Of a stretch of DNA of 64,000 nucleotides, positions 3,426 through 47,300 are shown one piece after another. The DNA lies in NCBI GenBank assembly GCA_021397835.1, contig JAJFZO010000407.1, positions 1,922,001-1,986,000 of the forward strand, read 5' to 3'. The translations under genes and the position numbers were made by a program. The stretch comes from Moringa oleifera. Lineage: Eukaryota; Streptophyta; Magnoliopsida; Brassicales; Moringaceae. Below the pieces are notes generated by a model that saw nothing but the letters and a program-made list of their open reading frames with translations, was not told the DNA's origin and did not search any database. Numbering within the stretch: the first letter of the stretch is position 1; the number at the start of each line of letters is the position of its first letter.

Positions 3426-3467
<42 letters not shown>

Positions 3468-16859: not shown

Positions 16860-19800
16860 ATAAATCAGTTATCAACTCTGCACGAAATTATTTTATCTTA
16901 TTAAATATATTAATAAATATAATAACAGTATCAATAAATTATTTAAAATTTTATTCTTATAATGTAAATTAAAATTAACTAATTTCTAATTAATTATAAA
17001 ATTTATAATACACAAATATAAAAATAATTTAAAATTTTTAAATAAGTTATTAATTCAATAATTATTAATAATAATGACACAAATGATAAAATAAATATAA
17101 TAAACAAATTTGATGAATTTATAGTATGTTAAATTTAAATATTTTAAAATAAATATTACCAGATTAATAAATTTTAAATTAACATTTTAAAATGAATCAT
17201 GCTTTAATTAAAAAATTACAATTGGTAAGACTGTTAAAAGTGTATCATAAGTTTACTCTTTTATATTTTATTTATAATTAAAAAATAATTATTTATTTTA
17301 AAAGATATATTAAAATTTGATTACATATATTAATGTTAAAAATATCAAACTCTCATAAAATTTTAATATTTATCCAAAATTACTAATCAACTCTATGATT
17401 AAAAAGTGACAAATCAAATTTTAATTTAGCAATTTAGATTAAATTAAACTTTATTAAAAATATACAAATTAAAAATTTTACACAATAAATTTTGACTTAA
17501 AACTTTTCATATATGTAAAAAAATATTTAAGTTACTATCACAAAGATTTTAGAATTTTTTGTAAGAAATACATATATTTTAAAATATATATTTTAAATTT
17601 TTAAAAATTTCATAAAAATAAACAAAAAATTATTCAAATTGAGAGAAAAATTCAAAATAAATTAAAAATTTTATTTAAATTATTTTTAGTATTTTAATAA
17701 TAAAAATATTTTAAATTTTAATAATTATTTAAATTAAGATTTAATTTAAATCAAATTAATAAATCAAGATTTAATTTATTATTTTTTAAATATGAGAGTT
17801 TGATTAATAATATAAGATAAATATTAAAATTTTATATAATTTTTACTCAAAAAATAATTTTTATGTACACATTAATGTTAAATTTAAAGATCCACTTATT
17901 GATAATTTATGTAACAGAAACCTATAATATTCATATGATATTCAATTTAATTAAATATTTTAAATAAAATATATTAATATCATAATATTTTGAAAAATAT
18001 GAAATATTTTTATATTTTAAAAATATTATGATATTAGATAAACTAATATTTACCAATATTTTAAAAATATATTTATCATTCCAAGAATTATAAACTGTTA
18101 TAAATTTAAATTTTTATTATTTTAAAATTAAATTTAGGATAAATTTTTTATAAATTTTAATATTTATTTTATATTATCAATTAAAATCTCATATTTAAAA
18201 ATAATAAATTAAATTTTAATCTATCAATTTGATTTAAATTGAAACCTATAAAAATTTTAAAAATTAGAGATACTAAAATTAAAGATCTTTATAATGAATT
18301 TTACTTTAATTTTTTTATAAATGTAAAAAAATTTTTGAAGTTACCATTACAAAAATTTTTAAATATATTAAATATTTTTTAAAATTTATAATATTAAAAA
18401 TGGTAAATACCATTTAAAACTTTGAGTTTTATCCTCTCTCTCTCCAATCAAACACTAACTTTTAAAATATATCCAAACAAAATCTGATTTATTGATTGTA
18501 TCTAAATTAAACATTGACTCAAAATAATTATAAAAAATTAGTGGTTTTTTCATTGTTAAAAATAACTAAAGACATTTCAAATATATTTTATACTTTATTT
18601 TAATTTTATTCTCAATTTTGAAATTTTTTTAACTAGTCAACTATTTTTTATGAAATTTTCAAAATTTTTATAGTATATTTTTTAAGAAAAGTATTTTTAG
18701 TACTTAAAAAATTTTGAATTTTTTTGTCATGATAGTTTAAATATTTTATTACATTCTTGAAAAATTATTATTCAAAATTTGTGATAAAATATTTTTAATT
18801 TGAATATTCTTAATATTTAAATTTTTAATAGGATTCAATTTTAATAAAATTAAAATGCTAAGGTTTATTTGGATACGTTTTGAAAGTAAAAGTTTGACTG
18901 AAGAGAGAAGATAAAACTTAAAGTTTTAAATGATATTTACTTTATTAAAAATTTATAAAAAATAAATTTTACATCAAAAAATGTTCAAATTTAAAAGATT
19001 GACCTACAATAAAATAAATAATTCATTTAAATTATTTTTGAAACATTTTAAAAATAAAAATATTTTAAAATTTTTATAATCATTTAAAATAAAATTTAAT
19101 TTGAATTAAATTATAAGATTAATATTTGATTTATCACTTTTTAAATATTGATAATAGGAAATAATATTTCATATTAATAATTATTAAAACATATAGATAA
19201 AATAACAAATATTGATATCACATGACCTTATTATATATATATATGATTAGCTTAAAATCGGTGTAATTTATAAGAAATAATTTTGAAAATTATATTTTTA
19301 TTATTATAAAATAAATTTATATTTTAATATTAATATTAGTTATAATATATAAAGCTAGTTTTTTAATTATTATCAAACTATAAAATTATAAATTTTAGTA
19401 GTTGTAATATCAGATTTTTTGAGTATCATTGTTTAGAATAAGTTCTTATAACAAATAAAATTATATTTTAATTTTAAATTATGAATGATTATCAACATAA
19501 AACATGGTACTCATTTTTTAATCTTGAACATTTCAAAGTGAATTAAATATTACAGATACATCGATAACATGTAATAATAAGTTGATCATATATTAATTAC
19601 AAATTACCATTAATAAAAAATATATTATTAAAATAAAAAATTAACCTATCAAATTGAGGAATAAATCCTTAATTCAAGAAAATATATATGTATATGTTTT
19701 TATAACTTAATAGTTGATAAATTTTAGTATTAAGAAAGTTTTAATATGAAGATTCAAATTTAAAATTTTTAAGAGAAATTTATTATTAAATTAAAATTTA

Positions 19801-20690
19801 CAAAATTATTTATATATAAAATTCGCACCTATGTGGTGATAATGTGAATGCAAAGTGATTCTATTTTTTATGTATATATATATATATTACATTATATTTC
19901 AATAATACCATAATTAAATATTATAATCATTTAACAATTTTAATATTTTTTAAAAAATTTAATTATATTTAATATATTTACATTCTATACTTATAGTCGT
20001 CTCAATTTTTAATTACCATTTTAAAATTTCATAACGTTGGATTAAAAATAACATGGCATCATGCTACGTCAGCCTGCCCAGCTTAATTGAGAATTCAAAT
20101 GAAAGCACTCCATTATTATCTTGCTTTTCTCCCTATTTTTGCTCTTACAAGTTGGCAATATAGTGCAAAATAATTTAGAAATAGTGCAAAATGGGCTATA
20201 TTTTATGCATTGTGTCCTCGGCCAACTTCCTAAGCCCATTGAATTCGTTCCTTAGGTTAATTTGATTTAAAAAGTTAAGCCCGAATCGACCTATTTAAAA
20301 CAAATTATCTAAGTTTAATCTATTTATCAAATGGGTCGGACCAATTGCTAGATCGGATTAAAAACGAGATCTCCAATTGCCATTTGTCATAACTTTATAA
20401 TTTTTTTAAATGACAATTATGTTTTTAAAAATATTTTCTGGAAAAAAAAGTGAAATTACAATCTTACCACATTTTAACTTCCAATCTCTTATTATAATTT
20501 AATCATTTTACAATTTATTTTTCTAAGTCTCATTATGAGAATAAACTTATAATATTGAAAATTTGTTTTATAAGAGAAAAAATTGTATAAATTTTGAAAT
20601 ATAGTCTCTTTTCCCAAACATATTATAAAAAATTTTCAATTATAATTTGATTAAACAAGTTGGTCGGATTATAAATTAAGAATTAATGAG
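16860..20690. other. A+T-rich intergenic DNA
   Basis: Almost 4 kb of A/T-run sequence with no coding frame and no recognisable mobile-element protein. A less A+T-rich stretch occurs at about 20,040–20,350, just before the promoter region of the peroxiredoxin gene. No RNA gene recognised. Confidence 0.7.
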
Positions 20691-24244: not shown

Positions 24245-26743
24245 TTACATTTTGGCAACAGCAGATTGATCCTCATTCAAGCTGCAATCATCCATACCTT
24301 TATCCCTCATTTCTGAGCAGATAATCTGGGCCTCTTGCAACCTCCCCTCCTGTCTAAGGCCAGCCGTAAGTTCATTGCAAATACGGACATTTAGAAGGAA
24401 ATTATTCTCAAACATTTCTCTGTACCAAACATAAGCTCCACTGAAATCCTTTAGCTCACAGTGTCCCTTAATCAGTATGTTATATGTATCAGCTTTAGGT
24501 ACCAATCCTTTAACTTTCATATCATCAACCAGACTCCTCACTTCTGACAACTTTCTTGCTCTAAATTGCCCCAAAATCAAGCTATTGTAGGTCGTCTTAT
24601 CTGGAACAATTCCTTGTTCCAACATCTGATGGTGCAAAGCAAATGCCTTCTCAACATCCCCATGTTCTGCATAACAATGAATGAGAGCATTATAGACAGC
24701 TCGATCAGGAGACAAATGCATTAGTGACATGTCATGAAATGATCTCTCCACTAGTTCAGTTCCTTCCTTGGTACATCCGCTAATAAGAGGATGATATGTT
24801 TTTAAATTAGGTTTGATACCCACAGTCTTCATGTTTTCATACAATTGAAGACATTTCTGCACATTTCCCGCATTGGAATAACCTGATATCAGGGTGTTAT
24901 ATGTTATCACATCAGGACTAAGACCTCGGCTTGTAATTTGGGTGAGTAAGTCTTCAGCTTCTAGTACCTTTCCTTTCTTACAGAGCCCATTAATGAGTGA
25001 ATTATATGTTACAAGGGTTGGATTGGATCCATTTGCCAGCATCTCATCAAAGAACCTGAAAGCATCTTTCAACTTTCCAACCATGCAACTACCATCAATG
25101 AGCATATTATATATCTGCGAATTGGGTGAAACCCCTCTTTCTGCCATATCTCTGAGGACTATTTCAGCTTCAAGAAGCTTACCATCTTTACATAAACAAT
25201 TTATGAGAGAACCATAGCTGACAACATTTAGCATTATCCCATTCCTTTCCATTTCTTCCAAAATCTCAAAACACCTATCGAATTGATATATTCGCCCATA
25301 GCCATCAATTAGGGTGTTATATGTCTCCACGTTTGGTGAAACCCCCTTCTCCGTCATCTTTTTTATCAACTCCTCTGCCTTGTCCATCTCTTTCATTTCA
25401 CAAAATTTGCCAATCAAAGAATTGAAAGTGATGTTGTTTGGCCTCAACCCCTGGTTTTCCATTTGTCTGATTGTAGACACAGCTGCATTCATGTCCCCCC
25501 TTTGACAGTATCCATTCAAAATGGTGTTGTATATAACCTCGTTTGGAACAAGCCCATTTTTCATTTCTTTCCTCAAAAGTTCTTCAGCCTTTTCAATATT
25601 CCCTTCTTTGCATAACCCATTCAACAAAATGCTAAAAGTATAACTGTTAATCTTAACCCCTTCACTCACTACTTTTTCATACAAACCCAGTGCAGCCTCA
25701 CCATCACCACTCCGGGAATACCCATCAAACAGTATACTATATGTAAACCTATCAGGCAGAAAACCATGAGCTTCCATCTCGTGTAACACAGTCTTCGCAT
25801 CTTCCATCCTTCTTGCTTTACAAAGCCCACTAAGCAACGAATTGAATGTAACAAGGTTCGGCTCCACATTTGCTTTTTTCATGCGCTCTCTTACATTGAA
25901 AGCTTCTTCCAGTTTTCCAACCTTACAATACCCATCAATCAGGGTATTATAGGTAACCTGAGTGGCCAGTAACTTTCTCTTAACCATTTCATCGAACAGC
26001 TTCTCTGCATCTTCCATTCTCTTCTCCTTGCACAATCCACCTATGATCACATTGTAAATAAATACAGTCGGTCTAACTCTATCCTTCTTCATAGAATCAA
26101 GCAGGTCACTAGCTCTCTTCAAGTCCCCTATTTTCACGGCCGCCTGTACTACTTTCCCGTACATAAACTTATTGGGCCTAAAACCCCACGCAACAATATT
26201 CGAGAATAAATCAAGGACCTTACCGAACTCATTGGAAGAAACCAACGAATCAACTAACAAATTCAGAGAATCTAAGGAAGGAAATATACCATCTGTCCTC
26301 ATAGAGTGACACAGTTCAGTTGCCTCACTGTGCATTTTGGAATGTGATAACACCGCCAAGAGCATGTCAGAAAAGATGGGCTTTAAGGAGGGTGACGCCA
26401 GAGAGAAGAGAGAGAAGAGTTCAGATGGTGAAGAGAACGTCTCTTTGGACAGAACCAGAGATTCGATGAGCCTTCGAGCCGTGTCCGTTCGTTCTTGTTG
26501 AAGAAGAACTCGAAGTTTCCGAACTTGTTCATGGCGTTCTTGGTCTTGGAGACTGGTGGGCTTACCATTGTCTTTTGATTCTTCCTCGATGAACCCGGTG
26601 CTCTCAATTTGGGAAGGTTTCCCCGGTAGCGAACCGTCCGTGCAGAGAGAGAGGGAGAAAGGTCCTGCAACCGGATTTCGTAGTTTGACAGGGGCAGCCA
26701 GAGAGAATTTCGGTAGAAGATAAAACCGCTTTGCCATCTTCAA
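24245..26743 (-). CDS. P-class pentatricopeptide repeat protein, apparent At5g12100 orthologue
   Basis: Encodes 832 residues in one exon, as is usual for plant PPR genes. After a basic N-terminus (MKMAKRFYLLPKFSLAAPVKL) that looks like a mitochondrial presequence comes a helical lead-in (about 70–140), then nearly back-to-back 35-residue PPR motifs from about 150 to 810, e.g. VTYNTLIDGYCKVGKLEEA. The motifs are uniform P-type; no E, DYW or SMR tail follows, so it is expected to bind organelle RNA for stability, splicing or translation, not to edit. Order, length and several non-repeat stretches (SPSELFSLFSLASPSLK; YVWYREMFENNFLLNV) match what I recall of Arabidopsis At5g12100 (about 816 aa). 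A second ATG two codons in is equally possible. Its RNA target is unknown. Confidence 0.92.
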   Translation of the reverse strand: MKMAKRFYLLPKFSLAAPVKLRNPVAGPFSLSLCTDGSLPGKPSQIESTGFIEEESKDNGKPTSLQDQERHEQVRKLRVLLQQERTDTARRLIESLVLSKETFSSPSELFSLFSLASPSLKPIFSDMLLAVLSHSKMHSEATELCHSMRTDGIFPSLDSLNLLVDSLVSSNEFGKVLDLFSNIVAWGFRPNKFMYGKVVQAAVKIGDLKRASDLLDSMKKDRVRPTVFIYNVIIGGLCKEKRMEDAEKLFDEMVKRKLLATQVTYNTLIDGYCKVGKLEEAFNVRERMKKANVEPNLVTFNSLLSGLCKARRMEDAKTVLHEMEAHGFLPDRFTYSILFDGYSRSGDGEAALGLYEKVVSEGVKINSYTFSILLNGLCKEGNIEKAEELLRKEMKNGLVPNEVIYNTILNGYCQRGDMNAAVSTIRQMENQGLRPNNITFNSLIGKFCEMKEMDKAEELIKKMTEKGVSPNVETYNTLIDGYGRIYQFDRCFEILEEMERNGIMLNVVSYGSLINCLCKDGKLLEAEIVLRDMAERGVSPNSQIYNMLIDGSCMVGKLKDAFRFFDEMLANGSNPTLVTYNSLINGLCKKGKVLEAEDLLTQITSRGLSPDVITYNTLISGYSNAGNVQKCLQLYENMKTVGIKPNLKTYHPLISGCTKEGTELVERSFHDMSLMHLSPDRAVYNALIHCYAEHGDVEKAFALHHQMLEQGIVPDKTTYNSLILGQFRARKLSEVRSLVDDMKVKGLVPKADTYNILIKGHCELKDFSGAYVWYREMFENNFLLNVRICNELTAGLRQEGRLQEAQIICSEMRDKGMDDCSLNEDQSAVAKM

Positions 26744-27402
26744 GGTTTGACATTGTCAGAGCTTCTGGTTACGTCACTCTTAAACCCTCATCGTTTCTAA
26801 GGCTTGGGCTTCTGAATTTGCAAAAACATGATGAACCACTGGGATCTACATACTGGGCCCAGTTTAATTTCCTGACTTCGTCGTCCTCTTCATGATAGGC
26901 CCAGATCCCTTAACTACAGGGATGTCCTATCCATAACAAAATCCCTACAACAGACAACACGGTCGAAGAAAGTCTGTGATTTGGATGATGAGCTTTGAAT
27001 TCCTTTACAAGGACTTGCAAGCAGAACAAGACAGCGATCTGTTAGCTCTGTTGTTTTGTCTGTTGGGTTGGGACGAGTCACGGCCGAGGCCATTCTCTGG
27101 TTTGTCTTTATGGACCCAACCGATCTCTGTATTTAGTTAGATTTGCTTCCCATCAATTAGAGAGAGAGAGAGAAAACGGGAAGTTCCTTCCTCACCAGCC
27201 AAAGCAACATTAAATGCTTGTTTTAAGACGGAAATAAAGTCTGGTTTATGTGAACAGAGACAGTAGGCCCTGCTGCCACCGACAGCACTGCTCAAGTAAT
27301 AGATGCCATGATCCAGTTCCATTTCTAACCTAACCCTGCCAATTTGTTGTAACCATTGATTGTGAATGGAACTGTTCATATCGTGATGGCTTAGTTCTTC
27401 AA
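26744..27402. other. spacer between PPR gene and Mutator-like element
   Basis: Presumed promoter/5' leader of the minus-strand PPR gene at its left, then mixed-composition DNA with a short GA tract near 27,160. An 80-codon minus frame (27,137–27,379) has no recognisable feature. Ends in an A-run that forms the left target-site duplication of the Mutator-like element. Confidence 0.5.
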
Positions 27403-27411
27403 AAAAAAAAA
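27403..27411. repeat. left 9-bp target-site duplication (A9) of the MULE
   Basis: The last nine A of an 11-A run immediately before the left terminus; the matching copy is a run of exactly nine A at 36,708–36,716. The homopolymer makes the exact edge uncertain by one or two bases. Confidence 0.65.
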
Positions 27412-27535
27412 GATGAAATTGCCAAAATTGGCAGTTAGATACCGGTCATTTGGGAAAAAAACATGTTTTATTAAGTTTGGTTTTTTTAGCATTTAAATGT
27501 CTTGGAAAGTCAAAGATACCCTTGCAAAAGACAAT
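27412..27535 (+). repeat. left terminal inverted repeat of the MULE
   Basis: Imperfect match to the reverse complement of 36,584–36,707. Weak over the first 67 bp (shared GRKGAAA start) and clearer after that, with the T-run/AGCATTTAAATG block and TACCCTT at the same distance from both ends. MULE termini are often diverged in this way. Confidence 0.65.
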
Positions 27536-27810
27536 GATACCCTTAAAAATTAAATGAACTCGAAAATTTATGAGATTTGTCCGAACACATTTCTTTTTTG
27601 GCGGAAAAATCTTTCCCTCTTTCGGCCACTCTCTTTCTTCGAGCTCTGTCTTTCTTCGCCCTTCCTTTGAGTTTTATTTCTTCCAATCTTTGTATCCAAG
27701 ATCTATCAAATCAAGATCCCAAGAAGAAATCGAAGGCTAGTTATCTTGCGCAGAGAAAGAAGCTCGTGTTTTTGACAATATATTCTTCTTCATAATCAGA
27801 CCGTGCTCGA

Positions 27811-30800
27811 ATGGGTAAAGAAGGTGACAGGTATACCGTTTAAAACTGTAATGTAGCTTAAAACCGTGAAGATTTCAGTTGTAACTATTTATATCGTGAT
27901 CTCCTCCTTTGTATTTCATAACATTGGTTGAGAATCGTGTCATGATCTTAGTTTCATGCATGTTTGAAAATCGTATCTTACTTTGTTTATCGTAACAAGT
28001 TTTCAATCGTGACTTATTTGATAACATCATTATGAGATTCGTAACATTCATAAAATCGTAACAAGTTTTCGTAACATGTTTTTCAATCGTGACTTATTTG
28101 ATGAAATCGTAACTTAAGTGATGAAATCGTAACATGCGAAATCATATATTCGTCTTTGTTATTTAAAATGTTTTTTTTTTCATTACAGAATCCGGATCAT
28201 TATAACTTGGAATGGTGAGTGGTCCGAGTGTAGAGGAAGTTTTGAGTATATTGGCAGAGCCATCAAAACTAAGGGGTATGTTATTCGGAGGGATTTGAAA
28301 TATGTACAGTTGTTGGATTTGGTTAAATGTTGCGTGGAGGCTGATTTCTCTAATATTGATATTGTACTGCATACCATAGTAAGATCTGAAAAAACTGCTG
28401 TCAAAATTGAGTTAAGGAATGATGAAGATGTTGAGTTTATGTTGTACGATGACAGTATAGTTCCACGTATAATTGTTGATTTGGTGCAGAGAAATTTTGT
28501 TGGAAATAGGTATGGTTTATGTGAAGGTGAAATTTCAGGAGGAGTTAATCCTTTTAACTCTTGTACGGGAAGTAATCCTACTGTGGAATTGGACGTTTAT
28601 GGCCCCGAACCATTCATCCATAGTGATACTCCTGTTGACACTCAGCACACCGATGAGATAAATTTGGATGAACAGGTGGACTATGATATTGGGTGTGAAT
28701 ACCCAATCATGGGAACTCAACCTACTCAGCCTACCAGTGAAGATCAATGTGAACTCACTGTAGAGGTAGAACTCGACAATGAAGCGGTGAATGAGAACTT
28801 ACGTACTGTCCCACCTTATATCCCAGTTGCATGCCCAGAAGTACATAATAATTCAAATAATGGTGTTGTCAGACGATACAATGTGTTGGGTGCTGAATTA
28901 TATAGTCTTACTCCGACTCCTACTATGAAATCAGTGACTCCGATTCATACCCTTACTAGAGGTCAGTTTTTCCCAAACAAGAAAGAGTTGAAGCGATTTT
29001 TGGGTATGCATGCATTAACTGAGAACTTTGAATTTAGAGTCACTAGGTCTAACAAATCAGTATTTGAGATTGCTTGTAGAGAAAGAAATTGTGCATGGAA
29101 GGTTCGTGCTGTGAGAGTTGCGCAAGGGCAATTCTTCCAAATTAGAAGGTGTGATTTGACGCATACTTGCACGGTTGAAGAGTTGCATCGACGACATCGA
29201 CAAGCAAGTTCTGCTGTTATTGGAGAAATTGTAGCTCAGAGGTTGTCTACCAATGCTAGAATCATTAAGCCGAAAGACATCATGGGAGATATGAAAGAAC
29301 TATATGGCATACAGATTTTATATAGTAAAGCTTGGAAGGCTAAAGAGTATGCATTGTCTCTTACTTATGGTGATCCAATTGAGTCATATCAACAATTGCC
29401 TTCATACTGCCACATGTTGCAAACTGTTAATCCGGGAACTAGGGCTCACATATGCATCGAGGATGGAACTAATCGATTTAAGTATTTATTTGTGGCTCTT
29501 GGACAATCATTGAGGGGATTTCATTCGGTAATTAGACCGGTCATTGCTATTGATGCTGCTCACCTAAAAGGGAGGTTCCACGGTGTAATGTTTGTAGCGG
29601 CATGTAAAGATGGGAATGAACAGATATATCCAATAGCATTCGGTTATGGTGACTCGGAGAACTATGAAGCATGGGAATGGTTCTTAGGGCAGCTAAAAGA
29701 AGCAATTGGTTCAGTTGAAGACTTGGTTATTATATCAGATCGTCATGCCAGTATTGCAAAGGCCACCGCAAAGGTCTTTCCTAATTCTTGTCATTGTTTA
29801 TGTTCCTGGCATATGGCTCAAAACATAAAGAATAAGTTTAAGAGAGAAGATGTATCTAAGATATTTTATAGTGCGGCTAGGGCATATCGAGAATCTGAAT
29901 TTAATAAATTAATGACTGAGTTACAGGCTAATCACCCTAAAGCTTTTGAATATATCATGAAGGAAGATCCAAAAAAATGGTCACGTGTGTATTGCCCCCG
30001 GAGACGTTATCAACTCATGACCACTAACATTGCCGAAAGTTTGAATTCATGTCTTCGATTTGCTCGTGAGTTGCCCGTTATGGCTTTATTGGAATTCATT
30101 CGAGATATGATGCAACGTTGGTTCTATGATCGATTGAAAAAAGCTAAGGCTTGGAGGTCACAACTCACAGAGTGGGTTCACTCATTGATGAATGAGAGAC
30201 AAAAAGTTTCATTACAAATGACGACTTCCAATGTTGATTGGAACGTTTTTTTAGTTAGGCACAAGGGTAAAGAGGCAGTTGTGAACCTTATCGACCGTAC
30301 TTGTACTTGTAGAGAGTTTCAAGCTGATCTTTTGCCATGTGCACATGCACTGGCAGCTTCCAGGTGATACTGATGGTTTTGTTAATTTCATTATTCATGT
30401 TATTTTTTTCATTAACTTCATATGTTGTGTACTTTTTGCAGGGAACGTAATATTGATTTCATAACTCTTTGCTCTAACTACTACAAACAGGATCAACTAG
30501 TAGCTGCATATGCTGAGCCGGTATATCCAGTTGGTGACAAGTCTGATTGGAATGTACCCGATGAAATCAAAAGAGTTGTGATATTACCACCGAATAATGG
30601 TAATTCAGTAGGGCGTCCAAAGAAGCAGAGAATACCCTCTGGTGGGGAGAGGGCGCGTAAAAAAAAATGCTCTAGATGCTTTCAATATGGGCACAATCGA
30701 TTAACATGCTCGAATCCACAATATTTTGATGGGGTAAGCCACTGGCAGTCGTCAAATGTCCCTGATCAATTTCGTCGTAAATGCCGTAACTGTGGTGGAG

Positions 30801-30874
30801 TTGGTCATAACGCACAAACTTGTCAAATGCCTCACAAATTAAATTCACAAGATGATTGCACCATTGACTTATGA
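27811..30874 (+). CDS. MULE transposase (mudrA type), 3 exons, intact
   Basis: Exons are 27,811–27,830, 28,189–30,363 and 30,442–30,874; both introns are GT–AG. The joined frame is 2,628 nt, 875 codons plus stop. The ATG at 27,811 is chosen because exon 1 (MGKEGD) joins in phase to RIRIIITWNGEW, a PB1-like N-terminal domain (to about residue 75). An acidic linker follows. The MuDR DNA-binding-like region starts near 267 (FFPNKKELKRFLGMHAL). The MULE transposase core spans about 440–560: Asp462 (AIDAAHLKG), Asp524 (IISDRHASI), CHCLCSWH, and a later conserved Glu623 (NIAESLN). A SWIM zinc finger has Cys712, Cys714, Cys724 and His726, with intron 2 just after it. Exon 3 adds two CCHC knuckles (CSRCFQYGHNRLTC, CRNCGGVGHNAQTC). 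It should bind the element ends and cut and paste. No stop or frameshift seen. Confidence 0.93.
27840..28145 (+). repeat. TCGTAAC repeat block 1 (intron 1 of transposase)
   Basis: At least six TCGTAAC and two TCGTGAC heptamers within intron 1, spaced irregularly and often followed by AAG or ATG or set in a GATGAAATCGTAAC context. The motif reads in the sense direction of the transposase gene. Confidence 0.85.
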
Positions 30875-31007
30875 TAAATCATAGTAATTTTTTATGATAT
30901 TGACGATTTTTAACTTCCACGGCTTCACATATTCGGATTTTAGGTTAGGTTTTTATATAGTTTCAATTGTTACATGCAGATGAGTGTACCTTATTTTTGT
31001 CCATTGA

Positions 31008-31745
31008 ATTCGTAACTTGATTAGAAAATCGATTAACATGTTCGTACCTTATTTATTTTACGATACTTGTATATGAAATCGATATTGAAATTCGTAAATC
31101 ATTATGAATTCTTAACTTGATTAGTTAATTATGAGTAACATTCGTTACTTGATTATGTATTCGTTAGTAAAATTCGTAACTTGATTATGAATTCGTAACT
31201 TCATTATGAATTCGTAACTTGATTATGTATTCGTTAGTAAAATTCGTAACTTGATTATGAATTCGTAACTTCATTATGAGTTCGTAACTTTATAAGGAAT
31301 TCGTACCTTGATTAGTAAATTATGAGTAATGTTCGTAACTTGATTATGTATTCGTTAGTAAAATTCGTAACTTTATTATGAGTTCGTAACTTTATTGTGA
31401 GTTCGTAACTTTATTATGAATTCGTACCTTGATTAGTAAATTATGAGTAATGTTCGTAACTTGATTATGTATCTGAGATAATTGTATATGAAATCGATAT
31501 TAAAATGAGGAAAATTCTTTATGAATTCTTATCTTGATTAGTTAATTATGAGTAACGTTCGTAACTTGATCATGTATTCGTTAGTAAAATTCGTAACTTT
31601 ATTATGAGTTCGTAACTTCATTATGTATTCGTTAGTAAAATTCGTAACTTGATTATGAAACAATTAGTAAAATTCGTAACTTAATTATGAATTCGTACAT
31701 TGATTAGTAAATTATGAGTAAACTTCCGTAACTTGATTGATGAGT
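31008..31745 (+). repeat. TTCGTAAC repeat block 2 (3' of transposase)
   Basis: About seventeen exact TTCGTAAC plus variants (TTCGTACC, TTCGTTAC) in a degenerate tandem array with a unit of about 20 bp (TTCGTAACTTGATTATGAA) and a higher-order unit of about 80 bp containing TATTCGTTAGTAAAATTCG. It starts about 130 bp after the transposase stop and ends about 200 bp before the protease stop, so it separates the two convergent genes. The motif is sense for the transposase. Confidence 0.9.
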
Positions 31746-31946
31746 TAGAATCATATGGAGACGTTACCAAAATTCATAACATTATTAGTACATCATACAT
31801 CTATTGACAAAAAAAAAAAACTGTTTCAATTGTAAAATTTGGCTTATATATACAAAATAATGTCATATACAATTGTAAAAATGTTATATACAATTCTCAA
31901 ATGTATATACAAAATGAATACATTGAATAAGAATAAAAAAATTTAA

Positions 31947-34900
31947 TCAATGACTATCATCTACAGTGGAGTTGGCAAATATATACATTGCCATGTGATT
32001 TCTAATAATTGACATATCCTTGTCAGTGTATTTTAAATGTCTCCTAAGTAGTAAATGTTCTATAATATACAGCATGTGAGGACCACAATTGCCACTGCAA
32101 AAAAAAAATAAAAAATAAGAATAAGGAAAGACATTCACCAGAAAAAAATTTTATAATAACACATACTGGTAAAAAGACTTACCTTCTTCGTTGCTGAGGG
32201 ACCTTGTTCTTTGGCTCCAAAGTGCATGAAAGTGGAAGATCCGGCATTTTGGCATCTGATTTCCGAATGAAATATCCGCCACTCGCCATATAGCTAGTTA
32301 GCATCCATCTGAAAGGATTTTGCTGCCGAATCCTCGCTTCAGTTGGTATCTCTTGACGGAATGAGTCAAAGACACGCAACGAGAATTTCCTCAGATCAAT
32401 GACAACTAGGAGCCAGTGAGATCCGCCAACGTGGCAAGGAACCATCAGCTACATTAAATAATGTTCAAATATCATTAAGTACTCATAATATGGAAAAAAA
32501 GTATAAGTATATAAATCATTACTAATGAAGATAACTAACCTTATTTACAGTGTCCCAAGCAGGACAATCCCTTGAAAATTTGCCTCGCACACGGTCTAGG
32601 AAATCTTCTTCCCATTTATGCGCTTCAAAGTTCGAGTGTGCCGGAGGACAATCAGCATCTGGATCCTTCTGATATTCGTTGTAAATGTAATAAAATGCTG
32701 TCTGTAAATTTGAACAATAAAACAAAGTCAACAAATAAATTGAATAGAAAATCAGATAAATAGTCTTAATGATCAAGGGACTTACATATAGCCAAGGATC
32801 ACAGATGCAGATATCTTGTGCATATTGCTCAGGTAGCTCCTTCTGCCTTCTCCGCAATATGTGCAAATATGCATCAATGTGCTGGTGTAGACATTAGAAA
32901 AGTGATATTATCAGTACTATGAATATACGGAATCAAGGTACGAATTCTAAATTTAGTTACGATAATATGAAACATGTTACGATACTATGAAACATGTTAC
33001 GATAATGTGAAACATGTTACGAAATAAAGTTACGAATTATAATTTTAGTTACGATACTATGAAACATGTTACGATACTATGAAACATGTTACGATACTAT
33101 GAAACATGTTACGATACTATGAAATATGTTACGAAACAAAAGCATGACATTTAAGCAAGGAATAATAATGTAGTGCAAAAAATTGAAAACTTACAGAGTC
33201 ATCGATCCACTCATCATTGTCGATAAGGGCTTTGAACCAGTCCACGCTCACTGAATGACCAATGCCTACGTTGCGGCTGAAGGAAATAAATAAAAAGAAA
33301 CTGTGAGAAAAGAATTCAAAAAAATTAAATTAAAAAAATTAGTATGCAACACATATGCTATGCAATACTTACTATGACTGGCCCTTCATGAAGTCGTTGA
33401 ATGCAGCGATGATCTTATCTGATATTTGCAACTTCGCGCTGACCATGTGAGTGGACTTGGCTTTCTTATGCCCAGTATGAAGCTCAACATATGGACTGCA
33501 CAGTTGTCTTGACCGTTTACGAGTCCTGACAACCGGCATCACATTGTCGGTGGCCTCAACTGGGACAAGGGCCAAGTCCCTCGCTGCCGTCCTCTTGGGT
33601 GACTCTGCAGATGGCAATTCTTTATCTACCACAGCAGGAGCCCCGAAGTTGTCACTGCATGGGAATGCAGTGACAACTTCTTCCATTGGCCCTGCAGTGG
33701 CTTCTGTTTCGTCGCATTGCCCTGCAGGAGCCAAACCCTCTCGGGCTGAGTCTGCCATACCACCCTGAAAAAAAAACAAACAATGTACTGAATTAGAAAG
33801 TCATATTTAATACATACATTTAATAATGTTCTAAAGAAACAAAAAATACAGTTGAAATAGATTAGAGAACTACCTCATTGGGAATTGGATTTGACATGGG
33901 TGGAGACGGGTCTCGGTCACCAAATCCATATCCTTGTAGAGATAATTGGATGGATTTCAGGATCGCCATTTGCTCCTGATGGCGTCTTTCGTTGTCTGAG
34001 TCCATACGATTTACCTTCGCCTCGAGAAGTTCCAATTTCGACTCCATAGCTACGAGACGACGGTAAACATCTGGATCCCGTTCAACCCTTTCAGCGCCAG
34101 GTGCCTCCCGCTCAACATCCTTTTCCCTCAGGTCCGGCTCTGACTCATCGACAATTCGTTCTTCTTCAGTAGGGATCCTCTCCCTTACCTTCAAAGTTTT
34201 GCGCAAAGAAGAAGACGAATTTGTAGCCCTGATCCGAATGGGAGACTCTACCATTTCGTCATCCCGAATCGATGGTTGGCCGGGCACAACACTGTCTTCA
34301 ACCCCAACATAGTATGGGGCTTGACGCTCGGCAGTAGTTGGCTTCAAATTAAGCTTAGCCCCCATCTGAAAATACAAATAAAGTTACGAAATTAAGAATG
34401 AATATACGAAAATGAAACGTTAAGGCACAACATAAAAATTAGAGAAAGAGGGCACGAAATTGAAAATGTAAGGCACGAAATGGCTGAATGAAGGCACGAA
34501 GTATAGAAAGAAGGTACGAAATTTAGAAGGAAGGCACGAAGTAGAGAAAGAAGGTACGAAATTTAGAATGAAGGCACGAAGTAGAGAAAGAAGGTACGAA
34601 ATTTAGAATGAAGGCACGAAGTAGAGAAAGAAGGTACGACATTTAGAATGAAGACACGAAGTATAGAAAGAAGGTACGACATTTAGAATGAAGACACGAA
34701 GTATAGAAAGAAGGTACGAAATTACTTACACTGTTTGTGAAGATTTTCTTGCAATCTCCATTATGGGGCCTGCGATGGAACCTCCATCGGCAAATTCTTG
34801 GCAATGGCAAGTCGGATCCTGACAACCTCATGCCATGCATGTTGGTAGCAGGAATCACTTCAAATGCAAAAACCTGTGAAAAAATGAAAATGAAGTTATA

Positions 34901-35672
34901 ATTGATTAATATAAAATTCAATGAAACTTTAAAAAATTAAAATAAAAAATTTCAAACAAAATCTTACGTGTAATGCCCACACAAAGCCGTAAGCATTATA
35001 GCTCACCCCATCAGCATCCCTGATTCGATTTGCAACTGCCTTCTTGAAATGCGATATGGAGTTGCAGTAGACCCAGATGCCCCATGGAAAGCCATTGAAC
35101 GCCTCTAAATTGTCGACTAAATTAAACTGCCATGTAGGGACCTGCTGCCGCTCGTCGTGGCCTTTGATGAACCCGTTCAGCAGATACAACAACCCCAGCT
35201 TTAGTTTATCATTTTCATCCTCAAACTCCCCTTGTAGTAACCTCGTCTTGATGCTACTACCAGTAACCTTATCCCTCCCCCCGAAATATTTGGCTAGGAT
35301 ACCAGATGGAGTAGCTTCAATATTCTCTGTATCCGGTAGCTCGCCAAACTTCAATCCGGTGATTAGGCAAAATTCCACTTTGCTGAAACGAACTTCATTC
35401 TGCCCAAGTCTGAACCACATTTCGTCCTCGCGGTTCTGCTGAATCTCCCGAAGTAGCAGATTATGGACAATAATCCCTGAGAAGTTAAAATCGGCGTGCA
35501 AATGTAGGAAATGCCCTAAGCAGGTCCCTCTGAATTTCTCCTTCTCAGAGTCATCCAAAATTGTCCTTAGAGTGGGGATGACATCATTGTCACAGTGCTT
35601 CAGTATCTTTCCAGTCTTCCACGACTCTTTGGGGGTCACATATGGCTTCTGAGAAACAGGGCTACTTGCCAT
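31947..35672 (-). CDS. DUF1985–ULP1 (C48) cysteine protease, 9 coding exons, intact
   Basis: Coding exons: 35672–34968, 34873–34730, 34365–33874, 33764–33373, 33276–33195, 32881–32786, 32701–32540, 32448–32183, 32094–31947, all GT–AG. The sum is 2,487 nt: 828 codons plus stop, in phase throughout. The ATG immediately follows a 3' splice site, so a 5'-UTR intron is likely (donor near 36,367). Exon 1 is a DUF1985 domain (FSGIIVHNLLLREI, EVRFSKVEFCLITGLKFGEL). Exons 3–4 are charged and probably disordered, with a short coiled coil (RLVAMESKLELLEAKVNRM). The C-terminal ULP1 domain carries His702 (GGSHWLL), Asp719 (VFDSF) and Cys783 (GNCGPHML), the catalytic triad of SUMO proteases. Such genes ride in KAONASHI MULEs; their substrate is not established. 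Deubiquitin-like or SUMO processing is inferred from fold only. Confidence 0.9.
32930..33140 (-). repeat. TCGTAAC repeat block 3 (intron 5 of ULP gene)
   Basis: About ten copies of GTTACGA (plus strand), most in a GTTACGATACTATGAAACAT unit of 20 bp repeated head to tail. Read on the minus strand, the sense of the protease gene, the core is TCGTAAC. Confidence 0.9.
34380..34720 (-). repeat. 40-bp tandem array, block 4 (intron 2 of ULP gene)
   Basis: From about 34,490 a regular 40-bp unit made of two half-units (AAGGCACGAAGTAGAGAAAG and AAGGTACGAAATTTAGAATG) is repeated about six times with a few substitutions; looser copies precede it. In the sense of the protease gene the cores read TTCGTACC and TTCGTGCC. 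Confidence 0.9.
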
Positions 35673-35727
35673 CTGCATTTGATCCAAAAAAAAAAGGGTC
35701 AAAAAATCGATTTTTCATTCAGTAATT

Positions 35728-35990
35728 ATGGTACGATTGTTTTAAACAAGGTACGATTTAATCAAATAAGTTACGATTTCAAACATATAAGGTACGATTT
35801 CAGAAAACAAGTCACGATTGAAAACAAAAAAGGTACGATTGAAGCAAACAAGTTACGATTTAAAACAAATACGATACGATTTCAACAAACAAGGTACGAT
35901 TTATGCAATCACAGTACGATTGCATAAAAAACAGTTCCATTAACAAAATAGGTTACGATTTCGTTAAATAGATACGATTATTAATATTAT
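35728..35990 (-). repeat. TCGTACC/TCGTAAC repeat block 5 (5'-UTR intron of ULP gene)
   Basis: About a dozen GGTACGATT or GTTACGATT cores (plus strand) at about 20-bp intervals separated by A-rich spacers such as TAAAACAAAC. On the minus, sense strand they read AATCGTACC or AATCGTAAC. Lies in the inferred 5'-UTR intron (36,367–35,673). Confidence 0.88.
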
Positions 35991-36583
35991 GAGGTCACGA
36001 ATGCGATGAACCGTTGCATATAGATGCACCTAAGCCAAGAAATTGGAGCCAACAAACCAGTAAATGAAGACTTAAGCATGCGATACCTATATACATATAC
36101 CCAGAGAAATTTTTGGGTTTCAATGTATCAAAAGAAAAATGAAAAATAATACACCGCGATATACCCAAACATCGCAGATTCCAAAACCAATACAAAATCA
36201 AAAGAAAATGATTTAAAAACTATTGGAGAAGTTTTCAAACCCATAGAGTAAACTCAAAAAAATTAAGAAATCGTTGAATCAAATATGAGGGAAGGATTTC
36301 ATCCGTGGGTATTCAATAAGCAAAAAACCCACAGAAATTTGAGTAGAATAGATGCTTGAAATCATACCTCTATTGTTTTTTTAGTGATTCAGTAGCTTGC
36401 GGATAGTATTGAGGAAAGGTTGGTTTACAACGAAAGCAAAGAAATCAACAGACACAGAATGAAGAGAGCTGAAGCTGAACGAGCTAAGTGGTAAAGCTTA
36501 GCGCCAGAATTAGGAGAGAGGGAAATAGAGACGTTTGAGATGTTTGACTTTTCATATTCTGCAGTTGGACAAGTAAGTAATTG

Positions 36584-36707
36584 TACATCTGCTGTGAAGG
36601 GTAATTTTGTCTCAAAGTATCTAAAAAGTGTTAAAAACAAATACATTAGTAATGTTAGTTATTTACGTAAATATCCTTATACGGGTGATTAAAATAGAAT
36701 TTTCCCC
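36584..36707 (-). repeat. right terminal inverted repeat of the MULE
   Basis: Reverse-complement partner of the left terminus. Read on the minus strand it starts GGGGAAAATTC, with the T-rich/ACACTTTTTAGAT block 67 bp in and TACCCTT near 100 bp. It doubles as the upstream region of the ULP gene. Confidence 0.65.
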
Positions 36708-36716
36708 AAAAAAAAA
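36708..36716. repeat. right 9-bp target-site duplication (A9) of the MULE
   Basis: Exactly nine A between the terminal CCCC of the element and the host sequence TGCTGGGTT. Matches the nine A ending at 27,411. Confidence 0.65.
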
Positions 36717-41340: not shown

Positions 41341-44300
41341 CTCTCTCTTTCTTTTCTTTTCCTCTGTAAATTTATTTTTCCCTTTGCTATTGTGAGAAAC
41401 CTCGAAACCCAAACTGTTTCAACTACAAAATGTGAGGCTTTGGTAAGAGATGTAACAAGTAACAACTATAAGTTTCAGGTAAAAAGTTGAGTGCGATTGA
41501 CGGCGGCGACTGTCCGGCAAGTGATGTCACTTTTCCGTCAATGTCTGTCGGTGCATCACTTTCCATTTTAGACACCCAACTCATAATTATTAAGTCTTAG
41601 AAGACCCACGTCTCCTCTTCAACCATACATTTCTCTTTCCCAACCAGCCCACTGATTTGTGCATTACATTAACAACTTTTTCTTCTCTTTTCTAATAACA
41701 ATGCACAAATATATATATATATATAAGCTTTTTATAACCGTACTCATTATTTAGCATTAGGTTTTTGGGTTTTATTAAGAGTTCGAAATTAAAATATCTT
41801 TTTTTTGAAAAAATAGATTTGAAAATTATAATTTTTAATTTTTTCTTTTAAATTTTAGAACTTAAGAGATTTTATTCATTCCAGCAATAAGAATCACAAG
41901 TTTATTGACTTTCCAAAGTTAATGTGGGTTGGAGTGATTATTGGCAGCATGACTCCTTTGAAGTTTGAAGTAGTAATTTTTTAAAAAATATATATATTCT
42001 TATTTATTTCAATCAGAACTCTATAATTTTAGTATTTTTTGATTTTTTTATCAAATGGGTCTTTACAAAAAATAAAAAAATTATAATTTATTATATTAAT
42101 AATAAATAAATAAATGACATTATGATTTCTTTTATTAAATAGCTATGTGTCAGCATACCATTAAAAATTCAGTATTTACATAAAATTTTATTTGTGTTGT
42201 ATAGAATTTAAATATTTTATGTTAATTACAAAAAAAAAATCTGCTATTAGACATTTTTGTGGATAAATAAATTATAAATATTTTTTTTGAAAATGTATCA
42301 AATAAATCTAAAAAATTGTAATGATACAGGGCTAAAAATATAACATCATTTCTAATTTATTTTATTAAATATTAAATAAACTGTTATAAGAAAATTTTGG
42401 ATTTTTCATCTACTTTAATTACGATTTAAAAGGGAAAAAATCGTTATTAAATCCTTTTCAAAACAAACAAATATTTTTAACCAACAAGACTCGAAACTCG
42501 AAACGACATATGCCGTTATCAAACGACATATGACATCACCATTTGGGTATAAACCCGTTTACTCTTTATTGTTAAAGGGCACTGAAAAATGCCGCGTGGC
42601 GTTGTGCGAATGTACGTTACAGCTCAGATGCTTCTCGTGGGTGATGCCTTTTGATTAACTTACAAGTCTGTTCCTCCTTCTTTACGGAAACCGGAGGGCT
42701 GTGAGGGCACCAAAAAGTGTACACTTGCTGTCACAATAGTGGGGAAGAACTGTACCGATCAGAAGGCGACCCTCTTTCTTTTTAAAAGGAAACAATACTA
42801 AGAAGTCTGGGTGTTTTTCACTGCCTGTTGTAGTTTCTGTCTGACCAATCTTATTACTTTTTACTTTTCCTTTTTACTTTGGTTAACAGTCAAACCTTCT
42901 TCTGTCTGCATATGAATGCCTGAAAGCTAATATGGCAAGCTGTGAACTTTCTGTCTTTGGAAAAAGATTAATAAAAATTAAAAAGTAAATATAAAAGGAC
43001 TTCTCATTATATTTATTTGTTATCTAATTATGATGTATCAATTAAATTAATTATATATTTAATTTTTTAATTTAATTTAATTTCAATTCAAACTATCTTA
43101 AAATATTAAAATATTTTAATTGTTAGTTTTAAAAATTATTTACATAAATTCTATTAATTCATCTCTCGAATTTAAACAATCTTCCACTCACACCCGCGAA
43201 CTATATTTTATATATTTTTAATTTTTTAATAATATAAAATAAAAATATATTCAAAATTTTGATTTTTTAATGATAATTTGAATAATTTTTATATTTAAAA
43301 AAATTAATAAAAAACTTAATATTTTTAAAAAATATAATATCAAAGGTATAAATAATCCCACCAACTCTTTAATTTCAACACAACTTTGCTATATTCTTAT
43401 AATCCAAACAAAGTTTAGGTTATATTACAACAGTATCTTATCTCTCTTTTTGTTGTGGTTGCGTCTTCTGATTTGGAGAAAATATAAAGATGAAGATGAT
43501 ACGAAACTCATTCTTTATGATAGAGAAATTAATTAGACGAAGAAACTTTAGCTCCCCCATAGTATTTAATGCTATTAATGTAGAAAAATCTGAATAGGAT
43601 GATAACTGAGTCATGCACGCAAAAAGAACTTAATTTTTTTTGTTATAATTATTTTTTAAAAAAATATTTAAAAAATGATGATAAGTTTTTATATTAAAAA
43701 TAAAATAAAATAAATAAAATGTATTTTAATTATTTATTATATTGATTTGACATGTTATAATCTTTTAAAAAAATTAATTCAAATAGAAAATATGTGGCTA
43801 AGCAGAAAGATAATATGATATATGAATGTCAATGGGATATTTAATTACATAGATAGCCTATAATTAGATTTTGATTAATGCGCATGCATGGTTGGTGAAG
43901 TAAAGAAGTAGGCGATCAATCTCGCTAACCTTAATTGCATAAATCAGTTCTCGGTGTTCTCATAAATAATATTAATCCCAGAGAATTTGTTTTTTCAAAA
44001 AATAATAAGTTGGAATCCGATTTCAATATGAGTATTGATCATAAGGATCAAATTTATTTTAACATTAAGAGTTTTTGTATTGTGATTTTATCATAGTATA
44101 TTTTATTGGTGATAATTCTCATGATTTTGGAAATATATGAATAATTTAATCCATAAATTAATGTTTTTAAATATTTTTTAAAGTAAAAATTATTTAAAAT
44201 CTTAAATTATACTCATTTGAAAAGTAGCAAAAGTAATAATTTATTAATTTAGATTTAAAATATTTCACATATGTGAAAGTTAACGAAGTTAATATTACTG

Positions 44301-47300
44301 TATATATAGTATTGAAAATATTTTAAAATTTTTTATATAATTAAACAATTTTAAAAATCATTAAAACATAACCCATTAGTGAAAATTTTTCAAAATTAAA
44401 AAATAAATTCAAAAAAATATATATTTAAATTATTTTTAAACAGATTTATCACGAAAAATATTTTTATTTTTATGACATTTGAGTCAGTACCCAATTTAAT
44501 TCAACTATGCATATTAGAATCCCATTTATGACTTTGTGAACATTAAATTTGATTTATTGTACAAAATATATATAATTGATGATTTTTAATGACAACTTTT
44601 ATCTTAATTTTTACAAAGAGATATGCTTTATTTTAAAATTATTTTATATTTAAATATTCATATAAAATCAACATAATTTATACCTAAAAAGGAAATTTTG
44701 ACCCAAAAAAAAAAAAATGCTCACTTTCTTTTGATAGGCGGCCATGAATTCACAAAAGGGAAGTGATCAAACCTTTGCACTAACAGAATTGGGTGGCTAA
44801 CAACTTTAAAAAAACAAACATGCATTTTGCTTTTGTTAAAAAATATTTAATTTTATTAACGTTGCATGCAACTTTTAGCATATAACAATCTGCTTTTCAT
44901 GATTTGTATTATGATAACAAAATGAAATCCTCGGCATGATTTGCTTGCTTTTCTCCGTTCAACTGAGACATAACAAGTAATTGTTGTGGTCCGTAAAGTT
45001 ACATTTAATTTATTAAATAATACTCCAATTCTAAATCGAATACTCTTGATAAGTCGGGTTGTTGCTATAAGAATAATTAACTTTTTGAAAGAAAATTTTA
45101 ACAAATTAAATACTTCCTAAGAATTTGTCAAAAGAACGTGTTCTTCCACCGGCACATTAATTTTTTTATTGAAATAATTTAAATAATAAAAGAGAATATT
45201 AAAATTAAATTATTTAATATTTTTTAATGCTTGGTAGCTCACAAGACACTTGAAAAAAATTTAAATTACAAAAAAGTATGTTTATTTAAATAAAAATTAT
45301 AAATAAGTTTTAAAAAATATTTAAATGAATATTAAAATTAAAAATGTATATATGTATATATCTTAAACTATAATAATTTTTTTAATTTAACTCCTATTAT
45401 TTTGGAATAATTATAAGTACATCTAATATTTCAATTTAATATAAAAATGAATTGAAGTACTAATTTAAATGAAGATCAAAGAGCTTACCTAAGTTAATAC
45501 AAATTTTTAAATCAAATTTAAAGAGAAAAATAGTGCAAATGACAAATTAGATTTTTATGACCAAAATATCTTAAAAATGACTCAAAATAAATTGTACAGA
45601 TGCCCATCCTTATTATTTAACTAATGCCATGTATTTTTTAATTTTTTTAATTTATGATAATATAAATTTAAAAATATATTTTTACTACATATAACATTTT
45701 AAAATATTTATAATGTTAAATTGAATATTTTTTTACATATATAAAATTTTAAGTTAAAATTAATTACATAGTATTTTTAATTTAAATGCCTCTAATTTTT
45801 ATAAAAAATTAAAATTTGAAATATAAAATTAATCGACACTTTAAATTTTTTTATACTTATTTTAAAATTTAAAATTTCAATGCGTGATATTAATATTCTT
45901 TGACTTGCTAAGGTTCAAGCAACATACCTTAGACTTTAAGAATATATAATATGATTATGGACCACCCGCTTTGAAAACCTTATTATTTTTTATCGGGCAC
46001 ATGCATACATTCTAAAGTCAGATACACCATTATATTTATAAAATAATATTAATAAATTAAAATATTCTAGAGACTCGCAAGTAGGAGAAAAAGAGAATGT
46101 GTGACAGACAGCTGGACGAATAGATAGAAAGATAGACTGCTCAACTGCTGCCATTAGTTCTTAAATGCCGGTGTCTGGTTAATTCAGTGATTATTACAAG
46201 ACTAAGGTCTTAATGCTGACAGTTGTATTAACTTATCGGTGATTTTAGCAATGACTAAATAATATTTATTTTATTTATATAATTTATAAAATTATTTTTA
46301 TAAACAATAAATAATTAATTAAAAAAAAATTAACGTAGGGTGTTAGGGATCTGGTTTTTTGTTTAATGAAAATCAGACAGGTAACCATAAGTTGTCTGAA
46401 ACTTCGAGCTGTGTGCGCATGACAGCCAGTGGCCTTTGACCAAAACACGTACTACTAAATTTTCTTTTTCTTTTTGCAGGGTAGATCCCTAAAGTTGTCA
46501 TAATTATAAACAGGCCCTCAAATTGAACATTCCAGTTCATATGGGAGACCAACCAAGAATGAATAAGTTCGAGGGTGGAAAAGCAAGGAATAGGGAGAAC
46601 TTATCTACTTCTTTTACTGTTTGGCTGCCTAGAAAAAGAAAAGGAAAATCGGGAGAGAGAGTGGCTCCATTGAGCATTCCAATTGATTCTGCTTTGTACA
46701 GGCAATCATATATGCTTTATTGTATCCTTTTTGGGTACTGTGATCCGGCAGTTTTGTTTTTTTCTCCCCTCGATCAGGTTAAAAACCCAAAGATTAGCTT
46801 CTCATTTATTTATTTATTTATTTAATTTTATGTTTTTTATTAAATATTACATAAAGTTTTAAAAATTTATCATTCATTTTAAATAAAATTTGATTTTAAA
46901 AAAAAACTTAATGGGTTGATTGTGTGTGAATTGAATGTCGATTTAAAGTAATTGTAAAAAAAATTAATTTAAAAATAATTTTAAATTACATATTTTATTT
47001 TAATTTATCTTTTAAATTAAAATAATTTTCGAATCACTAAATATTTTTATAAAATTTTAAAATTTTTCATATATAATTTTTTAAAACATTATTAATATCC
47101 AGAAGAATTAAAATTTTCATTTTCAATGGTGATAATTAAATATTTATTTATATTTATGAAAAAGTTCCAATCAAATTAATTATAAAAATTTGTAACCGAA
47201 TTTTTTAAAAATTTTAAATTTTTTCATAAAATTTGATGTCATGTAAATTAATAAATCAATTTTTTTCACAGAATTTTAAAAGTTGAAGATTTATTTGGAG

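Follow-up and report, generated by a model that had tools for sequence, protein, structure and literature searches.

The closest described systems are found among the VANDAL transposons of Arabidopsis, for which sequence-specific anti-silencing by VANC proteins, i.e., proteins carrying DUF1985, has been shown (Hosaka 2017, PMC5735166). According to the passages used, VANC21 localises to introns and to intergenic and terminal non-coding regions and binds the motif YAGTATTAY, whereas two exon probes without the motif were bound much less, and the targets of VANC6 use other motifs (AGTTGTCC/AGTTGTAC); concerning the direction of the motifs, 'same orientation' is stated within one array (PMC5735166). 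Binding of VANCs to non-coding tandem-repeat regions is also reported in EMBO Rep 2023 (PMC10398659), and VANC genes with Ulp1 (KIU) likewise act via specific non-coding motifs according to a 2026 review (PMC13317346). The locus compared here is situated in a stretch of 64,000 nucleotides of Moringa oleifera (assembly GCA_021397835.1, contig JAJFZO010000407.1, positions 1,922,001 to 1,986,000; G000:C13:1922001-1986000 in the genome search), hereafter the window. It contains a Mutator-like element (MULE) with a transposase gene, a convergent gene for a protein with DUF1985 and Ulp1 domains (the ULP gene) and five tandem-repeat arrays sharing one short core, and these arrays are quite likely the DNA targets of the element's own sequence-specific anti-silencing protein of the KIU/VANC type. 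The features are, in positions of the window:

27412..36707, no strand assigned: whole MULE of the type without terminal inverted repeats (non-TIR), with the five arrays, delimited by end similarity among genomic loci
27811..30874, plus strand: MURA-type transposase gene, predicted exons 27811-27830, 28189-30363 and 30442-30874, open splice model
27935..28133, plus strand: array 1, in transposase intron 1; 10 TCGTRHC cores, all plus; period around 20 bp
31010..31743, plus strand: array 2, between the stop codons; 20 cores at 31,010-31,680, all plus, with the tandem repeat reaching 31,743
31947..35672, minus strand: KIU/VANC-like gene, nine predicted coding exons with GT-AG introns, 828 amino acids (aa), open
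32937..33134, minus strand: array 3, in ULP intron 5; unit of 20 bp, 11 cores, all minus
34383..34719, minus strand: array 4, in ULP intron 2; unit of 40 bp, 15 cores, all minus
35730..36000, minus strand: array 5, upstream of the ULP start codon; 12 cores, all minus; periods of 20/41 bp

The core TCGTAMC (M = A/C, covering TCGTAAC and TCGTACC) occurs 26 times on the plus and 27 times on the minus strand of the window (both strands counted), and 52 of these 53 cores lie inside the one MULE of 9.3 kb. All 26 plus cores are situated at 27,990-31,674, left of 31.8 kb, and the 26 minus cores inside the element at 32,937-35,952, right of it; a single stray minus core at 37,520 lies outside the element. 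In 500 dinucleotide shuffles of 27,413-36,703, the mean number of cores was 0.54 on the plus and 0.70 on the minus strand, with a maximum of 4 on each. A first, sequence-only reading of this DNA had noticed five blocks with the shared heart TCGTAAC/TCGTACC and a flip of strand near the convergence point of the two genes: the heart is confirmed, with strand counts far above those of shuffled sequence, and the flip applies to every core in the element. By region, the cores amount to 6 in transposase intron 1 and 20 between the two stop codons (plus strand), and to 11 in ULP intron 5, 7 in ULP intron 2 and 8 upstream of the ULP start codon (minus strand). Since TCGTGCC, TCGTGAC, TCGTGTC and TCGTATC share arrays and orientation with TCGTAMC, the wider form TCGTRHC is the better description of the core, and its spans in the five arrays agree well with the extent of the blocks as first noticed. 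None of the 12 coding exons and none of the seven short introns of the predicted gene models holds a core of either form, as the first reading had supposed. Two of its placements need revision: of three ULP introns said to carry minus cores, two are introns of the coding region, whereas the third block precedes the start codon and sits probably in an intron of the 5' untranslated region (UTR) with its donor near 36368; and the plus cores of the transposase side are oriented as described, whereas the block at 31.0-31.7 kb sits between the stops of the two genes and not in an intron.

As in target arrays of VANC proteins, a dense short motif is thus repeated in the same orientation within tandem repeats of non-coding DNA. 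Spacer and period differ from array to array, and the core is common to all five. The largest, array 2, combines periods of 19/32/51/121 bp, and the unit of array 4 consists of two alternating cores, mostly TCGTACC/TCGTGCC. In 12 elements of the clade to which the window element belongs (clade A, see below), some base context is loosely common to the arrays: the three bases preceding the core are A or T, position +12 (counted from the first base of the core) is T in 67-100% of the distinct sites of all five arrays, and position +11 is T in four of the five. Core-to-core distances up to 65 bp are mostly 13, 19-21, 32-33, 39-41, 52-53 or 58-60 bp; these classes hold 289 of 329 distances in ten clade-A elements and 110 of 121 in six elements of the sister clade B. 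The two clades share clusters at 13, 19-21 and 39-41 bp; a further cluster at 32-33 bp is seen in clade A, with no such distance in clade B. Because the copies share ancestry, these distances are not independent; the spacing is partly due to inheritance and is not a clean helical repeat. Helical periodicity is reportedly stressed by Sasaki 2022.

Concerning the element itself, its two ends (GATGAAATTGCC on the left and GGGGAAAATTCT on the right, read inward) agree loosely by eye, i.e., terminal inverted repeats are weak or absent. The ULP-side end is matched by 41 other loci, in 36 of which the similarity sets in no more than a few bases from 36,707, and the transposase-side end by nine loci, less clearly than at the ULP side. 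A 9-bp target-site duplication (A9) is presumed at 27403-27411 and 36708-36716; the left A-run is 11 long and of low complexity, such that this duplication is compatible but weak evidence. The transposase is of the MURA type expected in a MULE, with Pfam matches to MULE (PF10551, 6.3e-20), Transposase_mut, DBD_Tnp_Mut, SWIM and zf-CCHC_6 (accessions among these matches: PF10551, PF00872, PF03108). The 828-aa protein carries DUF1985 at aa 73-202 (Pfam E 1.7e-25), as VANC proteins do, and Peptidase_C48/Ulp1 at aa 600-819 (E 3.2e-24), and a C48 gene convergent with the transposase, together with weak or no terminal inverted repeats, is the arrangement of KI/KIU non-TIR MULEs. Its nearest database proteins match at 28-45% and are mostly from Acer and Dipteronia. 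The gene models were built from the sequence alone, and exon and intron assignments are predicted. Since the element has the same parts as the VANC/KIU systems, a KIU/VANC-type reading with TCGTRMC as its word is proposed.

The position of the cores relative to introns bears on a signal acting at the RNA level, i.e., an intronic splicing element, a branch-point or 5'-splice-like decoy or a source of small RNA, in which case the orientation would follow from transcription. The polarity agrees with gene sense, and four of the five arrays are situated in introns or in the probable 5'UTR intron, whereas the biggest array lies between the genes, and cores are missing from six of the eight ULP coding-region introns and from transposase intron 2. 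A branch-point signal consists of a URAY core with the branch A, in introns. The resemblance to a branch point suggested by the sequence-only reading fails on this ground, as many cores are TCGTACC, clade B has mostly TCGTGCC/TCGTGTC/TCGTGAC, the TACC and TGCC forms are without URAY and the largest array is not intronic; the branch-point variant was therefore rejected. The GT within the core is fixed by the search pattern, such that a 5'-splice-like role retains some probability. Altogether, an RNA-level signal is extremely improbable.

Equally, the position relative to the ends of the element bears on subterminal repeats bound by the transposase, which would be inverted between the halves as in many DNA transposons. 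In agreement with this, the cores are read from each end toward the centre in 18 elements (the window element and 17 relatives, see below). However, the left 398 bp of the element, on the transposase side, contain no core, on the ULP side there is none from 36,000 to the terminus near 36,707 (the last core ends around 707 bp from the terminus), and the largest array is found close to the centre of the element. For known MULE transposases, binding takes place in the termini or close to them. Altogether, subterminal transposase sites are very improbable here, and strictly terminal ones were rejected on the position of the cores. Of the options listed in the sequence-only reading, a stranded protein-binding site nevertheless fits best, the likely binder being the element's own DUF1985-Ulp1 protein and not the transposase, as the cores lie away from both termini.

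The element is one of many in its genome (279.5 Mb, 669 contigs searched). A 27-mer taken from array 2 is found 32 times, at 16 places including the window, and the DUF1985 family is large, with 150 scored Pfam matches among 417 candidates and many open frames. In 30 loci of 3.4 kb around the best DUF1985 matches (L009-L038, including the window itself as L018), TCGTAMC is found exclusively in ULP sense, and the wider TCGTRHC shows one opposite site each in three of them; in L014 and L035 this site falls beyond the element end, and in L021 it falls within the coding match to DUF1985. For comparison over 10 kb, 17 stretches (L039-L055) were taken, 16 of them from 91 of the 150 DUF1985 matches selected, with one exception, for having no stop (L039-L049 being the lowest-scoring of the 91), and L055 from the genome-wide listing of three cores in a row. 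In all 17, the ULP and transposase genes converge in the order seen in the window element. Together, these 18 elements contain 692 TCGTRHC sites with the polarity and 12 against it; outside the tblastn coding matches, 662 follow gene sense and three oppose it (570 and three in the first 16 elements). The three non-coding exceptions, one each in L042, L050 and L051, are a GATACGA found at comparable positions within the central, poorly conserved part of the ULP gene, and the other nine opposite sites lie inside coding matches. Accordingly, none of the related MULEs examined lacks the core or carries it in random orientation, the two outcomes that would have spoken against a conserved sense as first described. 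As a tandem arrangement of the genes was found in none of the 18 elements, i.e., every one is convergent, gene sense and element half are inseparable. Core number differs between close copies, the array in ULP intron 5 differs in period between the window element and L054, and this intron region holds cores in 5 of 12 clade-A and in all six clade-B elements; this patchy presence indicates that arrays come and go while their direction is kept.

On the question of a host satellite, i.e., of similar arrays being frequent outside this family, a genome-wide search for three successive TCGTAMC (gaps 6-36) gave 860 forward and 843 reverse occurrences, against 56 and 55 for a reversed-pattern control. 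Their placement refers to the matches listed for contig C1, where most clusters are element-like in layout and two are isolated single rows (10521739, 11222587). This contig has eight DUF1985 matches, of which 1203182+ (L042, clade B) is without a row among the matches listed. At the other seven (232707+, 361576-, 2253956+, 2414157-, 6566243+, 6796440- and 11559313-), the listed arrays follow ULP sense on the side of the ULP gene and are reversed on that of the transposase; among the matches listed, three of the seven elements show the ULP side alone, and 11559313- is without it. Two further listed groups, 2014734-2022207 (L055) and 2791990-2799547, have the same plus-then-minus layout.

A further comparison concerns sister clade B. 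In a tree of the DUF1985 exon (46 rows from one genome, with the window entered twice, as itself and as L018), L042, L045, L047, L048, L050 and L051 form a monophyletic group with a support of 100/100. At base five of the core, the ratio of A to G is 58:32 in the 12 clade-A elements and 2:43 in clade B in transposase intron 1, 34:1 and 7:53 in ULP intron 5, and 90:43 and 15:27 in ULP intron 2; clade B has mostly TCGTGCC/TCGTGTC/TCGTGAC, i.e., the core drifts toward TCGTGNC in three separate arrays, and the shift is partial. As for VANC target arrays, repeat number and motif thus diverge between related elements. Such a concerted shift, in arrays separated by kilobases, would be expected if a single DNA-binding protein changed, whereas local slippage would not coordinate it. 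This bears on passive tandem repeats, in which ancestral core-like sites would have been multiplied by slippage and unequal exchange and their orientation fixed by descent, with no protein reading them. The variable core number between close copies, the different periods of the intron 5 array in the window element and L054, and the fact that tandem duplication does not invert units are all in line with such an origin; the one core common to five arrays with different spacers, the base-five shift, the absence of cores from coding exons and the survival of CpG in the cores (see below) speak against it, and it is quite unlikely.

As a separate observation on clade B, the transposase-side cores of L042 (8684-9968), L045 (2-1168) and L047 (2-1040) lie within tandem repeats of 146 bp, outward of which repeats of 162-165 bp follow in 4-5 copies; in the tandem-repeat listing of the window element, repeats of 146 bp or 162-165 bp do not occur.

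The ratio of observed to expected CpG is 1.88, 2.91, 2.90, 2.04 and 2.62 in arrays 1-5, 0.66 in the coding exons and 0.52 in the window outside the element; the seven short introns contain no CpG in 640 bp, as compared to 11-34 CpG per array. The CpG of these cores has been spared the decay seen in the short introns, which fits either selection on the motif or protection from methylation.

By homology with the VANC/KIU systems, the following course of events may be envisaged. The element is a non-TIR MULE of the KI/VANDAL kind, with both genes open in the predicted splice models, and its DUF1985-Ulp1 protein would most likely bind TCGTRMC cores that stand head to tail in a loosely shared A/T context. 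The cores would be kept in non-coding DNA, such that coding sequence stays free; local tandem duplication would multiply them and give rise to the different unit lengths, while selection for recognition by one protein would keep them alike. Binding would then remove DNA methylation from the element's own family only, such that its genes are expressed, to the presumed benefit of the element.

Several points weigh against this proposal. The core TCGTRHC matches none of the published motifs compared (YAGTATTAY, AGTTGTCC, AGTTGTAC), and the agreement of AGTTGTAC with AATCGTAC at 6 of 8 bases may be chance; however, as the published systems of VANDAL21 and VANDAL6 also differ from each other, the mismatch speaks against those two and not against the kind. 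The core context between arrays is only loosely shared. Within clade B, cores between the genes still show 12 A to 7 G and those upstream of ULP 10:0, all TCGTATC, and clade A already has G at base five in ULP intron 2 (43/133) and transposase intron 1 (32/90). Since every core holds a CpG, the CpG enrichment of the arrays is partly the motif itself, and since the compared elements come from one genome and share ancestry, their conserved polarity does not amount to many independent events. A structure model of the DUF1985 exon (23 sequences) has a predicted local distance difference test (pLDDT) score of 50 and therefore says nothing on DNA binding.

Concerning the meaning of the polarity, its conservation within the family is explained by descent and tandem duplication, and descent also accounts, at least in part, for the halves being opposite in polarity. 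By own estimate, chance alone would bring five starting directions into agreement about once in 16 to 32 trials, and a functional direction is possible. A more specific version appears rather unlikely: the protein would read head-to-tail arrays and act directionally with gene transcription or element ends, polarity being selected family-wide and flipping at gene convergence, and the CpG of the core would make binding methylation-sensitive and thereby a self-reinforcing switch. In the parts of the literature searched, which did not cover Sasaki 2022 (EMBO J), no discussion of a polarity flip between element halves was found, and the rule may be new. The strict polarity is open to testing, as is the CpG that each core contains. 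If the KIU/VANC-type reading is true, the family would represent a multi-copy anti-silencing system of this type in a plant, with a readable motif, TCGTAMC drifting to TCGTGNC, and a natural set for how a DUF1985-Ulp1 protein and its DNA word change together.

In the surroundings of the element, a pentatricopeptide repeat (PPR) frame adjoins it (24248-26755, minus strand, open, 836 aa), whose best database match is from Dovyalis caffra at 61%; together with the Acer and Dipteronia matches of the ULP protein, this makes a rosid host likely. The G+C content is very low in the blocks 2001-4000 (13.7%), 18001-20000 (13.5%), 44001-46000 (19.5%) and 60001-62000 (19.9%), with around 40% in the regions between. 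A unit of 142 bp is duplicated head to tail at 56507-56797 with 93% matches.

The organization of the element is most similar to that of VANDAL21/Hiun with VANC21-YAGTATTAY and of VANDAL6 with VANC6-AGTTGTMC, likewise MULEs with a DUF1985 gene and tandem repeats of a short motif in introns and intergenic DNA which, as far as the passages drawn on describe them, have the same orientation within arrays, are mainly non-coding and vary between related families. Despite this general similarity, there are some differences: the motif is another one, the polarity of the element flips once between its halves, a point on which the passages drawn on for VANDAL21 and VANDAL6 are silent, and in place of the vanA/B/C genes of VANDALs two convergent genes are present, with Ulp1 within the element. 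In the latter respect, the element resembles the KIU-carrying (Kaonashi, KI) MULEs, which are non-TIR and possess a gene with an Ulp1 domain reverse to the transposase (PMC2528002); in grapevine, melon and rice, both relative orientations of the two genes have been described (PMC2528002). Action via own motifs, as ascribed to KIU-VANDALs by the review (PMC13317346), would by analogy apply here as well. As compared to these KIU MULEs, the element has its own motif and a polarity kept across many copies, the motifs of Sasaki 2022 lying outside this comparison. With Mutator/MuDR, whose transposase-binding sites are terminal, it shares a transposase of the same MULE superfamily, whereas its arrays are internal. 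The kind of anti-silencing system proposed here is already known, and the Moringa element differs from it by its word and by the strict orientation in which this word is repeated.

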